From assembly GCF_011734195.1 (NCBI RefSeq), contig NZ_JAANTH010000002.1, positions 682,001 to 746,000 on the forward strand: a DNA stretch of 64,000 nucleotides, in the 5' to 3' direction. How positions within the stretch are numbered: position 1 is the first letter of the stretch; each line of letters begins with the position of its first letter. Origin of the DNA: Halobacterium sp. R2-5 (GTDB lineage Archaea > Halobacteriota > Halobacteria > Halobacteriales > Halobacteriaceae). Under the pieces are notes generated by a model. The model saw nothing but the letters and a program-made list of their open reading frames with translations, ran no database searches and was not told the DNA's origin. The position numbers and the translations under genes are program-made. Of the stretch, positions 20,465 to 45,232 are shown piece after piece.

Positions 20465-20489
20465 TTTATATTTGATTAGGCTAGCCTAA
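20465..20489 (+). promoter_or_regulatory. TATA element with DtxR/SirR-type iron operator
   Basis: TTTATATTT at 20465-20473 is followed at 20476-20489 by the perfect palindrome TTAGGCTAGCCTAA. This fits the DtxR/IdeR/Idr box family (core TTAGG...CCTAA), which manganese- or iron-loaded repressors bind in bacteria and in Halobacterium. Lying directly downstream of the TATA, it would block initiation when iron is plentiful. It controls the FAD protein gene at 20566. Confidence 0.75.
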
Positions 20490-20565
20490 AACACGTGCGA
20501 CGGAGCCACCGAACCGGGCGACGGGAACGACACGCGAGGGCGGGACGAGCGAGCGGGGGCGCAGC

Positions 20566-21468
20566 GTGACTGCCGACGAAACAGACGGGCCGGACGACCG
20601 ATGGGACGTCGCCATCGTCGGCGGCGGGCCGGCGGGCTGCTCGACGGGCGTCTTCACCGCCCGGTACGGCCTCGAAACCGTCGTCTTCGACCGCGGGCGG
20701 TCGTCGCTGCGGCAGTGCGCGCACCTCGAGAACTACCTCGGGTTCCCGGCGGGCATCGACGTGGAGACGTTCTACGCCCTCGCCCACGACCACGCCGAGG
20801 AAGCCGGCTGCCAGGTCGTCGAGGACCTCGTCGAATCCGTCGAGCGCGCCGACGACGGGTTCGTCCTCGAAACGCAGTCGGGAGAGCCGGTGCGCGCGAA
20901 TCGCGTCGTCGCGGCCACACGCTACGACGCGGACTACCTCCGCCCGCTCGACGCCGACGACGAGATGTACGAGAGGCACGTCCACGACGGTGACGAGGAG
21001 GAGTACTTCGACCGCGCGTACGCCGACGGCGACGGCCGGACGCCAATCGACGGCCTGTACGTCGCTTCGCCGGTCGAGGAGGCGTCGAGACAGGCGATCA
21101 CCGCGGCCGGCCACGGCGCGCTCGTCGGGAAGCACGTCGTCGGCGACGTCCGCCGCGAGCGCGGCTACCCCGAGGGACTGGCCGGGCGCGTCGACTGGCT
21201 GCGCCGCGAGGCCGCCCGCGACGACGAGTGGGGCGACCCCGACCGCTGGCGCGAGTACTTCGAGAACCACGTCCCCGACGACCACGACCTCGACGAGGAC
21301 GAACTCGCGGAACTCCGCGAGCAGGAAGTCGAGGACCGCCTCGACAGGTACGTCACCGACGAGGCAATCGAGGACCGCCGCCGGCGCGCCCACGACCGCA
21401 TCCTCGAACACCTCGACGATGACCGCATCCGGGCGTACCTCGACAAAACCGACGACGACTCCGCCTAG
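20566..21468 (+). CDS. FAD-binding oxidoreductase, thioredoxin-reductase-like, no NAD(P)H domain
   Basis: 300 residues. Residues 13-30 form the dinucleotide-binding AIVGGGPAGCSTG, the RQCAHLENYLGFPAGID region resembles thioredoxin reductase, and TPIDGLYVASPVEEASRQ at about 163-180 is the second FAD motif. The NAD(P)H-binding domain normally inserted between these halves is missing, and the catalytic CxxC is absent. A charged helical extension fills residues 205-300. The promoter carries a strong DtxR-type iron box, so expression should rise on iron starvation; a role in ferric-siderophore handling, reduction or redox sensing is plausible but inferred. Start is GTG at 20566, with a leader of roughly 70 bases; no second gene follows in the operon. 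Confidence 0.82.
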   Translation: MTADETDGPDDRWDVAIVGGGPAGCSTGVFTARYGLETVVFDRGRSSLRQCAHLENYLGFPAGIDVETFYALAHDHAEEAGCQVVEDLVESVERADDGFVLETQSGEPVRANRVVAATRYDADYLRPLDADDEMYERHVHDGDEEEYFDRAYADGDGRTPIDGLYVASPVEEASRQAITAAGHGALVGKHVVGDVRRERGYPEGLAGRVDWLRREAARDDEWGDPDRWREYFENHVPDDHDLDEDELAELREQEVEDRLDRYVTDEAIEDRRRRAHDRILEHLDDDRIRAYLDKTDDDSA

Positions 21469-34971: not shown

Positions 34972-36015
34972 ATGAACGAAGACGACGTACGGGACCTCCT
35001 CCGCGACGTCGAGGACCCGTCGCTCGGCGACGACATCGTCTCACTCGGCCTCGTCAACGACCTCGACGTCGACGGGGACAAAGTCACAATCTCGCTCGCG
35101 CTCGGCGCGCCGTACTCTCCCACGGAGACGGACATCGCCGGCCGCGTCCGCGAAGTTCTCGAAGACGCCGGCCTCGAAACCGACCTCACCGCCGCCATCC
35201 CCGACCGCAGCGGCGGCGACGTCCTCCCCGGCGTCAAGAACGTCATCGCCGTCGCCTCCGGCAAGGGCGGCGTCGGCAAGTCCACCGTCGCGGTCAACCT
35301 CGCTGCCGGCCTCGCCGACCGCGGCGCGCGCGTCGGCCTCTTCGACGCCGACATCTACGGCCCCAACGTCCCCCGGATGGTCGACGCCGACGACCACCCC
35401 CGCGCCACCGAGAGCGACACCATCGTCCCGCCCGAGCGACACGGCATGAAACTCATGAGCATGGCGTTCATGGTCGGCGAAGACGACCCCGTCATCTGGC
35501 GCGGCCCCATGGTCCACAAGGTCCTCACGCAGCTCGTCGAGGACGTCGAGTGGGGGAACCTCGACTACCTCGTCGTCGACCTCCCCCCGGGCACCGGCGA
35601 CACCCAGCTCACCATGCTCCAGACGGTCCCCCTCACCGGCGCCGTCGTCGTCACTACCCCGCAGGACGTCGCCGTCGACGACGCCCGCAAGGGCCTCCGC
35701 ATGTTCGGCCGCCACGACACCACCGTCCTCGGCATCGCCGAGAACATGAGCGGGTTCGTCTGCCCCGACTGCGGCGGCACCCACGACATCTTCGGCAGCG
35801 GCGGCGGCAAGGACTTCGCCGACGAGAACGAACTCCCGTTCCTCGGCTCCATCCCCCTCGACCCCAGCGTCCGCCAGGGCGGCGACCAGGGCGCGCCGGT
35901 CGTCCTCGACGACGACAACCAGACCGGCGAAGCGCTCCGCGAATTCGTCGCCGAAACCGCCGACATGATCGGCCTCGTCCACCGCCGCAACGCCAGCGGG
36001 CCAGCCAAACACTGA
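34972..36015 (+). CDS. mrp: Mrp/ApbC-type iron-sulfur cluster carrier ATPase
   Basis: 347 residues. An N-terminal MIP18/DUF59 domain (residues 1-80, [19 protein letters not shown]) is fused to a deviant Walker A P-loop ATPase: [18 protein letters not shown] at about 94-111, [29 protein letters not shown] pair near residue 265 is the site of the bridging Fe-S cluster in homologues. It delivers Fe-S clusters to apoproteins. The ATG at 34972 is the first one after a TATA-like CTTATCG at 34941-34947, giving leaderless transcription; the longer frame includes that element. Divergent from moaA, itself an Fe-S enzyme. Confidence 0.94.
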
Positions 36016-36024
36016 CGACTCCTC

Positions 36025-36240
36025 ATGTCTGACTTCGACGACGCCGAGAAACGCGACGCGCTCCGCGAGGTCGCCGACGAACTCCGCGAGAACGACTCCG
36101 AGGAAGCCGAACGCGTCGCCGCCATCGTCCACCGCGTCAGCGACATCTACGACGACGGCGAGGATGTCGACGCCCAGCACGTCTACCTCAACATGCGGAA
36201 CATCCTCCAGATCTCCGAGCAGGGCGGCATCGAGCGGTAG
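36025..36240 (+). CDS. Small acidic haloarchaeal protein, function unknown
   Basis: 71 residues, almost entirely helical and charged, with two helices (AEKRDALREVADELREN and EEAERVAAIVHRVSDIYD) followed by VDAQHVYLNMRNILQISEQGG. No known motif. It begins nine bases after the Mrp stop, so it is likely cotranscribed and may bind the same complex. Composition matches the core genome. It converges on the exported-protein pair, three bases apart. Confidence 0.75.
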   Translation: MSDFDDAEKRDALREVADELRENDSEEAERVAAIVHRVSDIYDDGEDVDAQHVYLNMRNILQISEQGGIER

Positions 36241-36243
36241 CCC

Positions 36244-37176
36244 CTATCTTCGCCGCCAGAGGACCGCTCCGACCAACGCCAAGACGACGAGCACCGCACC
36301 CGCACGCCGTTCCGTCGGGGATAGCGCTTCGTCGTCGACGTACCCCTCGCGGTACTGGCGCGCCGTCTCGTTGCTGTAACTGACGTCGGCCGTGCCGCCC
36401 GGCATTTGCTCGAAGTGGTCGTCCCACGCGTTCGCTGTCTCGTTCGGTTTCGCCATGAACTCCTTCTGGTCGAACTTTCCCTCCGGCTGGCCGGTGTCGT
36501 TGAACACCATCACCTTGCCTGCGACGACGTCGTCCGGGGCTTCGTCGAGCTCGAATCTGAACTCGCTCGAACTCCCGGGTTGCGGCGCGCCGATCTCGAA
36601 CTCGCCCTGAGTTTCAAACGTCTCTGCGCGCACGTGGAGTGCGTACGCTCGCTCCCCCGGATTGTGGACGGTAGAGACGAGCTCTGTCGAGTTCTCGCTT
36701 CGAACTACCTGGACATCACTCACATACGGAGTTGGAACGTCGGGACTCGACGCGTTCAGGTGGTGTGTGAAATTGAACATGAACTCCCGTTCACTCGCAA
36801 CTATACGTACTGAGTGGTTATCTTGAGTTGTGTCAAGATAACTGGTCACATTCTTCGATACAAATTTCGATTCTCCACCCTCTAACTCTGGCATCTCAGG
36901 ACTAAATCCAACACCGTCAACCCATAGCCCAAATTCACTTGGGTACTTCATCCCTCCTTTATTTTCGACCCCAACACAGACGCGGTTAGCAGTCTCTAAA
37001 AAACTTACAAAGAACTCTACATGTAAGTTAAATTCTTTATCTATATCAACTGCTCTATGTTTCTTTGCATCCTCACACGGACTTTCAGATTGATCTGTCG
37101 GAACCGCAGTAGCGCTTGGAACGATAGCTAGAGAGAGTACAACGAGGACGACGAGGAAGACATTCTTACCGGCCAT
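36244..37176 (-). CDS. Membrane-anchored exported protein, partner of the PKD protein
   Basis: 310 residues. A Sec signal (NVFLVVLVVLSLAIVPSATA, cleavage near residue 24) is followed by an extracellular region with two CARDB-like or beta-sandwich stretches (VHVEFF..., VSDVQVVRSENSTELVSTVHNPGERAYALHV near residues 155-190), several N-glycosylation sequons, and a C-terminal membrane helix (AGAVLVVLALVGAVLW) ending in RRR. It would be held outside the cell with a tiny cytoplasmic end. Its ATG overlaps the end of the large PKD gene by 11 bases. The first half (36.8-37.2 kb) is much more AT-rich than the rest of the window. No family is recognised. Confidence 0.8.
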   Translation of the reverse strand: MAGKNVFLVVLVVLSLAIVPSATAVPTDQSESPCEDAKKHRAVDIDKEFNLHVEFFVSFLETANRVCVGVENKGGMKYPSEFGLWVDGVGFSPEMPELEGGESKFVSKNVTSYLDTTQDNHSVRIVASEREFMFNFTHHLNASSPDVPTPYVSDVQVVRSENSTELVSTVHNPGERAYALHVRAETFETQGEFEIGAPQPGSSSEFRFELDEAPDDVVAGKVMVFNDTGQPEGKFDQKEFMAKPNETANAWDDHFEQMPGGTADVSYSNETARQYREGYVDDEALSPTERRAGAVLVVLALVGAVLWRRR

Positions 37177-40100
37177 ACTTTTCCTCTATTTTCTCCGTTA
37201 ATATATCTTCAATTCTTTCTACACTAATAACTCCGTCTTCCGTGTGTTCGACTATCCGGGAGACCTCTCGGCTCTCCATCTCCGGCAACCGCTTCGTATC
37301 TTCACGTGTGACGTACTTCGTGAGCGTAACGTTCGCTCGGCCGACTGTCTCGACTACTGAGTCTCCGTCGTTGAGACTACCGACTTCCGCCGTCCTCGTT
37401 CCGGTCTGCTTACTGAGAACCCACTGCTGACTGGGCACGATGTCCGCGATTCGAACGTCACGAGAGTTAGCCGCACTCTCAGCCATGATTTCGCTGTGTA
37501 CGGTTTTCCACGGCTGCCACTCGTACGAGGCTGGGTCGACGAGCGTGCGGTTCTCCGCCAAGTACACGTCTCGCATCTCCGAGCGTTCGTGTTCCACTTC
37601 GTACTCGTACTGGCGCTCGTACTCCGGTTCACGGACTGTCACGTGACGCATATCGCCCGTGTACTCGTGCGAATAGCTCCAAGGATGTGTTGACCAGTAT
37701 GTCTCCTCGACGGTCCGACTTCGTGTGACTTCCTTCGTGCGGGTTACCGTATGCTCCTCAGTCACTGTCTCGGTCGTCTGATACGACATGCAGCCGAACA
37801 TCCCGCACTTCTCTTTGTAGACGATTTTCGACTCCTCAGTCGTATACGTGTCCTCGTACGTTTCGGTCGTCTCGTAGGTCTCGGTCGTCTCGTACCGGAA
37901 CTCCTTCTCCGTCCGGTACTTCCCGTCGCGGACGAGCTTCTGCCGCGTGTCCCCCGTGAAGGTTCCAGAACCGCCGCGGTTGGACCGCCACTCGTTCTCG
38001 GTCGTCGTCCACGTATATTTCTCAGTCGTCGTGCCGTCCGCCGACCACTCGGGATGCGTTTCTAGGAAGAACTCTCTACGTCCTCGCTCGTAGAACCGCA
38101 TCTTGTCCACATCGTACTCGACGGGGTCGGTCTTTACGTACTTCTCCAACTGGAATTCGCGGCCTGCTTGATTCACCTGCTGGACGTGGTATCCAGAATC
38201 CACGAGGTCGTCTCGAACCCCCTCGTTAGCCGTTCTTCGAACGGTGTGTTCGGGTCGCTCGACGAGATACGACACCGACGTTGAGACGTCCGCTATCTCG
38301 CTGTACGCGGATGCGTACACCACGGGCTGCGGTACCGTCGTGGTGTACTCCATCTGCGGGTGAAGCGTGGGATACGACGACAGGTTAACCGGGCCATCAC
38401 GGAACGCCTTCGCCGGAATTTCGACCGTCCAGTGGTGCCATCGCCCTCTGCCTTCCGGGTCTGGATCGGCGACTTCTCCTGGCCTCTCTTTGCTATTCAC
38501 CCGATCGACTACGGACCCGTGTTCCGGGCGAACGCCGAACGAGAGTTTCTCTTTGTACGTCGCCCTCGACAGGTAGTAGCGTTCGGATTTCACCGAAACA
38601 GTAATAGTCTCGTTCGGATAGAACGGGCCACTTTCTTCGATCGTCGGGTCTTCGAGTTCCGGAGCGAACCAATCGAGTAGACCGGACGAGTTCGTCGTCT
38701 GCTGCTGACCGTCGACCAGTTGTAGCCACACGGTATTCGTCACCTCAATCCCGATTCGAGACTGATTTCGGCCCGCATCGACCCCGTACCAGTGGTACTC
38801 TAACGGAGAACCGTCGGGGTCGAAGGATTTCCGCGCGTCGAACACGATCCCCCGCAACCGATTGTGTTCCGTTTGCGGATCGATGGTCTCCATACGAATC
38901 TCCGGTGATGAGAGCGTGACCGGAACTGAATCGCTCGTTCGGTTGGTGTAATCATTTACGCGCCACCGAACCTCCGAGAAGCCGCTAATGTCTGCTATTC
39001 GCTCCCTGTATGACGACTTCTCGAGAATTAGGTAACCTTTCTCATCAACTGATTTCTTTAATTCTGAATTTTCCCCTGCTCCAGTCACGCGTATAATGGC
39101 CTCTATTTTCCCCGGCTCCACACCGTTCAAATCGACTTTCACGCGGTAGGTCGCCGTGTACCTCGACTCGTCGATGCGTGGGTGGTACTGGTCGAGTGGG
39201 CCGTCCCGAACGAAGCCTGCCGACACGACTTCTGGTGGTCCAGGTACCGCCACGGTTCGGATGGCGACGTCGGTCTGTCCGCGAGCGTCGCGAGCGCGTA
39301 CCGTGATCGTGTGGTCGCCCGGTTCGAGTGAGTCGAGATACGTCTTCGCGGCCAGTTTGTCCCCGCCTTTACGGCCGTCGCGGCCGTCCGTGGCGAACGT
39401 CTCAACCTGCTCGCCGTCGACGTGCACCGTCACGGTCTGGAGGTTCTCGTAGTCGTCGGTGGCTTCGATGGTGACGGGGGCGACGCTGTTGTTCTCGACT
39501 TCGACAGTCGTCAGTTCGGGTGCGGGGTCCGCGACGACGGTCCGGGTCCCGTCCGAGAACGTGGCGACGTCGCCGTCTGTCGCGGCGTAGAGCTCGTGGA
39601 CGCCGGGAGTGAACGAACGCGTAGTGGTGGTGCCGCGGGCGACCTGCCGTCCGTCCTGCATCCACACCCCGGACGCGTCGTTCGTGAGTTCGTACTCGGC
39701 AGTCAGATCACCGTGTCCCGTGATGACCTGCGGGCCATCGACGTCGGCGTTACTGCCTCCCGTCGCGGTGTCGTCGGTCGAGGTGCCCCCGTCAGTTGGG
39801 TCAGTGACGGTGATGGGGCTCTTCGCGGTGTCGCGCTGGTCGTCTTCGTCGACGGCGGCGACGGAGACGGTGTGCGTGCCCGTCGTCGGGAAGCGGACCG
39901 TTCGCGTGGTCGTCGTCGCGTCGCCGGAGACCGACTCCGTCGCGACGTGTTCGCCGTCGACGCTCCAGACGAGTCTGTCGAGCGGTGCGCTACCGGCGTC
40001 GGCGTCGACGGTGAACCGCGCCGGGTCGCCGATGGTCGTCTCTGTCGGTGACGCGAGCGACGCGGTTGGCGGATCGCCGGGTTTGACAGTGACGTAGAGA

Positions 40101-40456
40101 GTGTCCGTCGTCGTGGCGCCGTCGTCGTCGGTGACGGCGAGCGTGACGCGGTACGTGCCCGTGGCTTCGGCTGAGAACTGCGTCTGTTCGCAGTCGCTGC
40201 AAGTCGGTGTGGTGGCGTTCGTGACGTCACCGGACTCGGCGGCGACGGTCCAGTCGTAGCGCTCGATGGTGCCGTCGGGGTCGCGGGACCCGCCGGCGTC
40301 GAGGTAGACTGTGGTTCCGCGGGTAACCGTCTGGTCGAGGCCCGCGTCGGCGAGCGGCGCTTTGTTCGATGCGTCGACACCGGTCGACGCGGCTGTGCCT
40401 GGGGTCGTGACGGCCGCGAGGACGAGACACGCGGCGAACAACCAAGCTGCTTTCAC
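37166..40456 (-). CDS. Large exported PKD-domain protein
   Basis: 1096 residues. A Sec signal (KAAWLFAACLVLAAVTTPGTA) precedes two PKD domains (about 31-125 with PLADAGLDQTVTRGTTV and DPDGTIERYDW, and 126-220), a Thr/Asp/Gly linker, further beta-sandwich domains and a C-terminal region (from about 813) with a Thr/Glu/Tyr-rich repetitive segment (843-923) containing CGMFGC. No membrane anchor or PGF-type sorting signal is seen. I chose the GTG at 40456 over one at 40477, since the TATA-like TTTATGTAG on this strand (centre about 40490) predicts a start near 40464, which excludes 40477. Lower GC and several Cys, rare in haloarchaeal exoproteins, are odd. A surface or adhesion-like role is inferred only. 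Confidence 0.85.
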   Translation of the reverse strand: MKAAWLFAACLVLAAVTTPGTAASTGVDASNKAPLADAGLDQTVTRGTTVYLDAGGSRDPDGTIERYDWTVAAESGDVTNATTPTCSDCEQTQFSAEATGTYRVTLAVTDDDGATTTDTLYVTVKPGDPPTASLASPTETTIGDPARFTVDADAGSAPLDRLVWSVDGEHVATESVSGDATTTTRTVRFPTTGTHTVSVAAVDEDDQRDTAKSPITVTDPTDGGTSTDDTATGGSNADVDGPQVITGHGDLTAEYELTNDASGVWMQDGRQVARGTTTTRSFTPGVHELYAATDGDVATFSDGTRTVVADPAPELTTVEVENNSVAPVTIEATDDYENLQTVTVHVDGEQVETFATDGRDGRKGGDKLAAKTYLDSLEPGDHTITVRARDARGQTDVAIRTVAVPGPPEVVSAGFVRDGPLDQYHPRIDESRYTATYRVKVDLNGVEPGKIEAIIRVTGAGENSELKKSVDEKGYLILEKSSYRERIADISGFSEVRWRVNDYTNRTSDSVPVTLSSPEIRMETIDPQTEHNRLRGIVFDARKSFDPDGSPLEYHWYGVDAGRNQSRIGIEVTNTVWLQLVDGQQQTTNSSGLLDWFAPELEDPTIEESGPFYPNETITVSVKSERYYLSRATYKEKLSFGVRPEHGSVVDRVNSKERPGEVADPDPEGRGRWHHWTVEIPAKAFRDGPVNLSSYPTLHPQMEYTTTVPQPVVYASAYSEIADVSTSVSYLVERPEHTVRRTANEGVRDDLVDSGYHVQQVNQAGREFQLEKYVKTDPVEYDVDKMRFYERGRREFFLETHPEWSADGTTTEKYTWTTTENEWRSNRGGSGTFTGDTRQKLVRDGKYRTEKEFRYETTETYETTETYEDTYTTEESKIVYKEKCGMFGCMSYQTTETVTEEHTVTRTKEVTRSRTVEETYWSTHPWSYSHEYTGDMRHVTVREPEYERQYEYEVEHERSEMRDVYLAENRTLVDPASYEWQPWKTVHSEIMAESAANSRDVRIADIVPSQQWVLSKQTGTRTAEVGSLNDGDSVVETVGRANVTLTKYVTREDTKRLPEMESREVSRIVEHTEDGVISVERIEDILTEKIEEKYGR

Positions 40457-40483
40457 GCTACTCTCAATTGAACCCACTATCTA

Positions 40484-44677: not shown

Positions 44678-45232
44678 ATGACAGACGTCATCGTCGCCGG
44701 CGGGGGTCCCGCCGGCCTGGGCGCCGCCCTGTTCACCGCGAAGAACGACCTCGACACCGTCGTCTTCGACACCGACGAGACGTGGATGCACAAGGCCCAC
44801 CTCTACAACTACCTCGGCATCGAGTCCGTCGGGGGCACGGAGTTCGTGGAGGACAGCCGCGACCAGGTCGACGAGTTCGGCGTCGACCGCCGCCAGGGCG
44901 AGGAGGTCACGGGCGTCGAGCAGTCCGGTGACGGGTTCGCTGTGACGACCGACGACGACGAGTACGAGGCCGACTACGTCGTGCTCGCGACGGGCGCGAA
45001 CCGCGAGCTCGCCGAGGACCTCGGCTGTGCGTTTACGGACGAGGACGTCGTCGACGTGGACGTCGACATGGAGACCAGCGTCGACGACGCGTACGCGACG
45101 GGCGCGATGGTGCGCGCCGAGGAGTGGCAGGCCATCATCGCCGCGGGCGACGGCGCGGCGGCCGCGCTCAACATCCTCTCGAAGGAGAAAGGCGAGCACT
45201 TCCACGACTTCGACGTGCCGGACGAGGAGTAA
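44678..45232 (+). CDS. Short FAD-binding oxidoreductase lacking the NAD(P)H domain
   Basis: 184 residues. The FAD-binding DVIVAGGGPAGLGAALFTAK at the N-terminus and the second motif TSVDDAYATGAMVRAEEWQ near residues 128-147 are those of thioredoxin-reductase-like proteins, but the NAD(P)H domain (about 120 residues) is absent, as are the redox cysteines. ADYVVLATGA is the intervening strand. It resembles the FAD protein at 20566 in plan, without its helical tail. An electron donor other than bound NAD(P)H, or a sensing role, seems likely. A TATA element at 44647-44654 (CTTTATCG) lies 28 bases ahead of the ATG. Confidence 0.8.
   Translation: MTDVIVAGGGPAGLGAALFTAKNDLDTVVFDTDETWMHKAHLYNYLGIESVGGTEFVEDSRDQVDEFGVDRRQGEEVTGVEQSGDGFAVTTDDDEYEADYVVLATGANRELAEDLGCAFTDEDVVDVDVDMETSVDDAYATGAMVRAEEWQAIIAAGDGAAAALNILSKEKGEHFHDFDVPDEE

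Follow-up and report, generated by a model that had tools for sequence, protein, structure and literature searches.

The locus lies within a 64,000-nucleotide stretch of Halobacterium sp. R2-5 DNA that was analysed at its full length (the window), and comprises a TATA element, an operator and one open reading frame. The TATA element TTTATATT (20465–20472, forward strand) belongs to the promoter of a flavoprotein gene. Immediately 3' of it lies TTAGGCTAGCCTAA (20476–20489), a 14-base exact inverted repeat of the DtxR class of iron operators; a palindrome at this place had been reported in a preliminary description of this DNA, and the report was correct. The open reading frame downstream (20566–21468, forward strand; predicted GTG start) encodes a thioredoxin reductase (TrxR)-like flavoprotein of 300 amino acids without an NAD(P)H domain, as identified from the frame itself, profile matches and an AlphaFold2 model. 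The gene is solitary, with unrelated genes on both sides and an operator of its own; a FecCD transporter with its own operator sites is located elsewhere in the same genome.

With up to three mismatches allowed, the operator palindrome had a single match in the window, with no mismatches of its own. Shuffled controls searched at the same tolerance gave a mean of 0.25 matches, with at least one match in 20 of 100 shuffles. The pattern TTAGGN4CCTAA is present at 10 places genome-wide, and the reversed pattern at one. Across the orthologous promoters of the window and four congeners (five in all), the GTTTAT of the TATA element and both five-base half-sites of the operator are invariant; of the four central bases, the first three are variable. 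Together with the conservation across the family described below, the shuffles and the genome-wide counts rule out a chance palindrome.

The protein retains both FAD halves of TrxR. The first spans residues 13–118 (20602–20919, forward strand), with GGGPAG at residues 19–24, and the second spans residues 163–198 (21052–21159, forward strand), with the sequence GLYVASP...RQAITAAG. Residues 14–118 matched PF07992 with a score of 30.4 bits (cut-off 26.1). The thioredoxin reductase equivalog TIGR01292 scored 76.5 bits, with its best stretch at residues 13–125, and thus missed its curated cut-off of 343 bits. The place of the TrxR NADPH domain is taken by a short linker (residues 118–163; 20917–21054, forward strand), which is 34–52 residues long in 114 of 114 family members, and no CxxC motif was present in any of the 114. 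The profile positions, the linker length and the lack of CxxC agree with the earlier statement that the gene product has FAD halves and lacks both the NAD(P)H domain and CxxC. The match to PHROGs was confined to the first FAD half, and PF08021 (SIP FAD_binding_9) was absent from the Pfam matches of the flavoprotein up to an E-value of 1.

The TrxR-type flavin-site residue Q176 is invariant (114/114). In 111 of the 114 members the second FAD motif has proline (P169 in the window protein) in the position of the TrxR Asp, and FAD binding is therefore treated here as putative. Two cysteines are frequently conserved, C25 in 95 and C51 in 109 of 114 members; with neither of them invariant and no CxxC in the family, they were rejected as a redox pair. 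The AlphaFold2 model, built from 21 sequences, had a mean pLDDT of 88.3 and a pTM of 0.86. Its best match in the PDB was TTHA0370 (2CVJ), with a Z-score of 25.2, an rmsd of 1.6 over 178 residues and 32% identity, while ordinary TrxRs and their relatives matched with Z-scores of 22–24.

The C-terminal domain (residues 199–300; 21160–21465, forward strand) is helical in the model and carries Trp211, which is invariant (114/114) in the family alignment. When folded separately, this domain of about 100 residues had a pLDDT of 85.9. It had no match in the PDB at E ≤ 0.001, which is no proof of a new fold, and no Pfam family match. The preliminary description had called this region a charged helical tail; it is helical, but it is a confidently predicted domain (approximately residues 200–300) rather than a loose tail. 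The word "truncated", used of the whole protein at the same time, undersells it, as all 114 scored members share the architecture, which marks a stable family. A decayed or truncated thioredoxin reductase is thereby ruled out. The orthologues in loci L002–L028 had no internal stops, and the orthologue in L030 had one.

A second NADPH-domain-less thioredoxin-reductase-like protein, of the short type (184 amino acids), is encoded in the window at 44678–45232. It is one of 11 other NADPH-less haloarchaeal relatives that were aligned, mostly shorter proteins, all of which have an Asp-Trp or Asp-Phe pair immediately after the FAD core. From this alignment, Trp211 may be part of the core mechanism of the NADPH-less members. 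Two loci (L105, 5971–6861 and 6858–7604; L088, 7439–8320 and 6693–7442) encode a longer and a shorter flavoprotein of this kind directly next to each other in overlapping frames, in the manner of a pair. Elsewhere in the window, the stretch 36001–40477 is of lower GC content (0.56–0.61 in 36001–40000, against mostly 0.65–0.73 elsewhere), and the 1103- and 310-amino-acid proteins encoded there look exported by eye.

The scored set consisted of 114 long-type members, including that of the window. Loci were taken from 40 stretches around best matches, 20 loci (L104–L123) drawn from the best 80 loci listed in a collection with one genome per species, 60 places hand-picked from a scan of 194 genomes (one per genome, roughly by score), and the window. 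This gave 121 loci with a profile match, of which seven below 330 bits (L088, L116, L118–L121 and L123) were excluded before counting. As the loci were picked from best matches, strong, long-type members are over-represented and the sampling is not random. It includes five near-identical duplicate pairs, and members were therefore additionally counted by clusters of 80% identity.

A match at E ≤ 1e-40 was present in 173 of the 194 genomes of the order. By hand count, the match is strong and of the long type (E ≤ 1e-85) in 118 of these, and the other 55 have weaker matches alone, so the flavoprotein is not universal for iron uptake. Among the best 80 loci listed, L104–L123 were all Halobacteria by title, L124 came from a Thermoplasmatales bin and was a short relative, and the others were weaker matches, nearly all of them partial over the first FAD half. 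Among the papers listed in our literature searches, none was recognised as dealing with the protein family itself; one probable member is tabulated in PMC11218638 and is discussed below.

The exact operator TTAGGN4CCTAA precedes the flavoprotein gene, or the binding-protein gene or genes directly upstream of it, in 91 of the 114 long-type haloarchaeal members. Sites were scored within 400 nt 5' of either gene. A first scoring had given 93 members; the second window ends at the profile start and cuts off two sites, and the lower figure is used. The reversed pattern was found in one of 114 members, and 29 permuted palindromes gave a mean of 0.03 and a maximum of 1 among the same 114. Of 1948 random 400-nt windows taken from other parts of these loci, 44 contained a site, and some of these may be genuine sites of neighbouring transporter genes. 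Counted by 80%-identity clusters, 65 of 80 have at least one site-bearing member, and 63 have a site in every member. No exact site was present in the scored windows of 23 members, seven of which have a site with one mismatch.

Operators also occur in pairs. With up to one mismatch allowed and duplicates included, 63 of the 89 site pairs closer than 120 bp are exactly 36 bp apart. Such pairs are seen in iron-operon promoters of several loci (L009, L010, L055, L056, L113, L260, L268 and others), and in those of L009 and L010 a BRE/TATA-like sequence was noted by eye between the two operators. The window promoter has the downstream operator of such pairs only.

Two of the 10 genomic sites precede genes for iron-carrier binding proteins (Peripla_BP_2), both lipoproteins, at C1:337314 and C2:408712. 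In the same locus as the first, a further site (C1:338508) lies 5' of FecCD permease and ATPase genes. At C1:1274245, the site lies 5' of the gene for an SBP_bac_1/6 binding protein, and a permease gene comes next. The remaining sites lie 5' of genes without a clear iron link, including a DUF7551/7552 gene, a gluconate-2-dehydrogenase subunit gene and a gene for a CopD-like membrane protein (CopD match just below the Pfam cut-off). A gene of the reversibly glycosylated polypeptide (RGP) type, which adjoins a binding-protein transporter, has two operator-like sites 29 bp apart (L095, 9454–9496; C1:1275453–1275495), and is an odd gene to find in an iron regulon.

The DNA-binding domain of DtxR (PF01325) had 11 matches in the genome at E ≤ 0.001, five of them above the cut-off and three of them strong (at least 48 bits); the three strongest are at C1:977747, C1:984468 and C1:362715. 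Full Pfam scans of two of the three strong proteins showed one to have three domains, including FeoA, and the other to be 147 amino acids long. The gene of the 147-amino-acid protein lies near sufBCD-like genes of Fe-S cluster assembly, named by eye (L098, 12211–12654 and 13295–16868; C1 at approximately 984–989 kb). The operator sites 5' of iron-transporter genes in this genome and of most family members elsewhere, together with the three strong DtxR-family matches, support the assignment of the palindrome to DtxR-class iron control in the preliminary description. It is close to certain that the gene belongs to the iron-uptake regulon, read here as the DtxR-family (FerR/Idr/TroR-type) iron-starvation regulon of haloarchaea.

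Genes of an iron-siderophore-type ABC transporter adjoin the flavoprotein gene in 94 of the 114 members, and the window copy is one of the 20 without them. In overlapping classes, a binding protein lies upstream in 71, a FecCD permease downstream in 39 and a binding protein downstream in 13 of the 114 members; the labels were assigned by BLAST to clusters, with Pfam identity checked on examples from two loci. A frequent order is binding protein, flavoprotein, FecCD permease and ATPase, with the frames touching. The gap between binding protein and flavoprotein is at most 10 nt or an overlap in 60 of 71, and that between flavoprotein and FecCD permease is at most 4 nt or an overlap in 37 of 39, with the nearest in-frame ATG or GTG assumed as the start. 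Halobacterium hubeiense has a binding protein, HHUB_RS14505, an iron ABC permease, an ATPase and four binding proteins in this order, and Haloarcula hispanica has HAH_RS18680, a permease, an ATPase and a binding protein. An operon of the same kind in a further genome (G010) was read from Pfam matches as Peripla_BP_2, flavoprotein, FecCD and ABC_tran. These FecCD-type operons around family members bear out the suggested tie to ferric chelates.

Expression data are available for one probable orthologue. In Haloferax mediterranei under denitrification, E6P09_02485, annotated as an NAD(P)/FAD-dependent oxidoreductase, is lowered, with a log2 fold change of −4.06 (PMC11218638, Table 2). The neighbouring permease E6P09_02480 (−4.04) and ATPase E6P09_02475 (−3.04) fall too, as do siderophore biosynthesis genes (PMC11218638). 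The orthology is probable from the annotation and the Haloarcula-like gene order. The experiment compared oxygen and nitrate conditions at equal iron, according to the authors (PMC11218638); the result is therefore one of co-regulation and no test of iron. The gene is tabulated there without comment on mechanism in the part of the paper concerned (PMC11218638).

The operator, regulon context, operon linkage, architecture and conservation are observed. On this basis and by analogy, we favour at a probability of roughly 0.55 that the protein is an iron-starvation-induced ferric-siderophore reductase, similar to IruO but without the NADPH domain; FAD binding, reductase activity and donor are putative. 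As the operator overlaps the zone just 3' of the TATA element, a metal-loaded DtxR-family repressor bound there in the presence of iron would block transcription of the gene, and iron shortage would free the promoter. The cytosolic FAD protein would then act on the cargo of a FecCD-type siderophore importer, most likely by reducing the imported ferric siderophore and so releasing Fe2+, as with IruO in Staphylococcus. Since the NADPH domain is missing, the electrons for the flavin probably come from another protein. In haloarchaea the likeliest such donor would be ferredoxin, which could dock at the place vacated by the NADPH domain. The C-terminal domain, with Trp211, might cover the flavin or form a docking or substrate site. 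In iron-starved Haloferax volcanii, ferredoxins are down approximately two-fold (PMC11349517), a drop that fits poorly with ferredoxin as the donor and counts against it.

The known cytosolic reductases were also sought in the haloarchaea. SIP (PF08021) was present in none of 96 haloarchaeal genomes, this genome included, and is ruled out as the reductase of the group. The FhuF domain was found in 32 of the 96, with none in this genome. All but one of the FhuF matches listed lie in open frames of at least 545 residues (one in 264) and many are paired, and the matches appear to fit the C-terminal parts of IucA/IucC better than stand-alone FhuF. IucA/IucC itself had no match in this genome, so siderophore synthesis by this route was rejected here, and the importer would therefore serve foreign siderophores. 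The real ferric-siderophore reductase could also be an ordinary TrxR-like enzyme that depends on NAD(P)H and is encoded elsewhere in the genome.

The flavoprotein might be a non-reductase partner of the importer, using its FAD to sense redox state or to handle apo-siderophore, or protecting the importer, while iron undergoes no net reduction. The loss of the usual FAD-motif Asp in nearly all members, the lack of CxxC and a C-terminal domain without a PDB match at the threshold used would suit such a role, but the invariant Q176 at the flavin site and the failure to find SIP and FhuF in this genome argue against it, and we regard it as unlikely.

Were NAD(P)H used directly, at the flavin face or via the C-terminal domain, the protein would be a compact ferric reductase fed by an ordinary donor. 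There are flavin reductases that lack a separate Rossmann domain, and several orthologues are publicly annotated as NAD(P)/FAD-dependent oxidoreductase. However, the NADPH domain is missing, with a linker of 34–52 residues in all 114 members, and GxGxx[GA] strings past approximately residue 100 are present in only 8 of the 114 members; this reading is less likely again, and the annotated name is probably misleading. The preliminary description had proposed a donor other than NAD(P)H; the missing domain on which this was based is confirmed, and it implies either such a donor or another mode of NAD(P)H binding.

Transporters of the FecCD/Peripla_BP_2 type carry haem and cobalamin too, and a cargo of this kind in place of ferric siderophore is improbable. 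While IruO also serves haem oxygenases (PMC10294844), the operons here are preceded by iron-type operators, and the probable orthologue is co-regulated with siderophore genes in H. mediterranei (PMC11218638).

According to a 2020 study of Haloferax volcanii, Fe3+ has to be reduced, and no gene for export, import or reduction is known in that species (PMC7407949). The flavoprotein is a good candidate for the enzyme that releases iron from imported ferric siderophores in haloarchaea, having an iron operator, an adjoining importer in most scored members, a redox-type fold and a wide distribution in the order. The family makes the question of how archaea release siderophore iron addressable by gene deletion and a simple spectroscopic assay, and if the reductase reading is true, a TrxR fold would be at work without its NADPH domain. 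A broader proposal, which we hold only tentatively and at well below even odds, is that haloarchaea have a ferric-siderophore reductase class of their own, in which a TrxR FAD core minus the NADPH domain and plus a helical Trp domain is driven by ferredoxin or another protein rather than by NAD(P)H, and is often co-translated with the importer.

Several known systems can be compared. SIP and FhuF carry out cytosolic ferric-siderophore reduction, the role proposed here for the haloarchaeal flavoprotein, but belong to different protein families, and their folds differ from that of the TrxR-like flavoprotein. The pyridine-nucleotide-independent TrxRs of Gloeobacter (5J60, 6XTF) share the TrxR-like fold, and the title of 6XTF describes it as 'bound to its electron donor', the donor being ferredoxin; these enzymes retain both the second domain and CxxC, and their substrate is thioredoxin. 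The closest solved fold, TTHA0370 of Thermus thermophilus (PDB 2CVJ and 2YWL; thioredoxin reductase-related), likewise lacks the NADPH domain and, by alignment, the usual FAD-motif Asp. It has 180 residues without the C-terminal domain, and is not known to be linked to iron; the one paper found to name it deals with halogenases.

In outline, both the operator class and the regulators acting on it are known from the haloarchaeal Idr1/Idr2, Idr/SirR/TroR and ferR signal work (as cited in PMC11349517), and all fhu operons of Haloferax volcanii are said to bear the ferR regulon signal (PMC11349517). The fhu/FerR-Idr regulon of Haloferax volcanii and Halobacterium salinarum thus shares with the flavoprotein operons the DtxR-family control of siderophore ABC transporters; the main text of PMC11349517, when searched, contained no mention of FAD, a flavoprotein, thioredoxin, a reductase or an oxidoreductase. 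IruO of Staphylococcus aureus and the TrxR-like FNR1 proteins are also among the closest comparisons. IruO, a TrxR-like flavoprotein described as iron-regulated through a Fur box and as reducing hydroxamate ferric siderophores, is the precedent for such a protein in ferric-siderophore reduction (PMC10294844). The haloarchaeal flavoprotein would work like IruO, yet it lacks the NAD(P)H domain that IruO has, adds a C-terminal helical domain, and is placed under a DtxR-type rather than a Fur-type operator.
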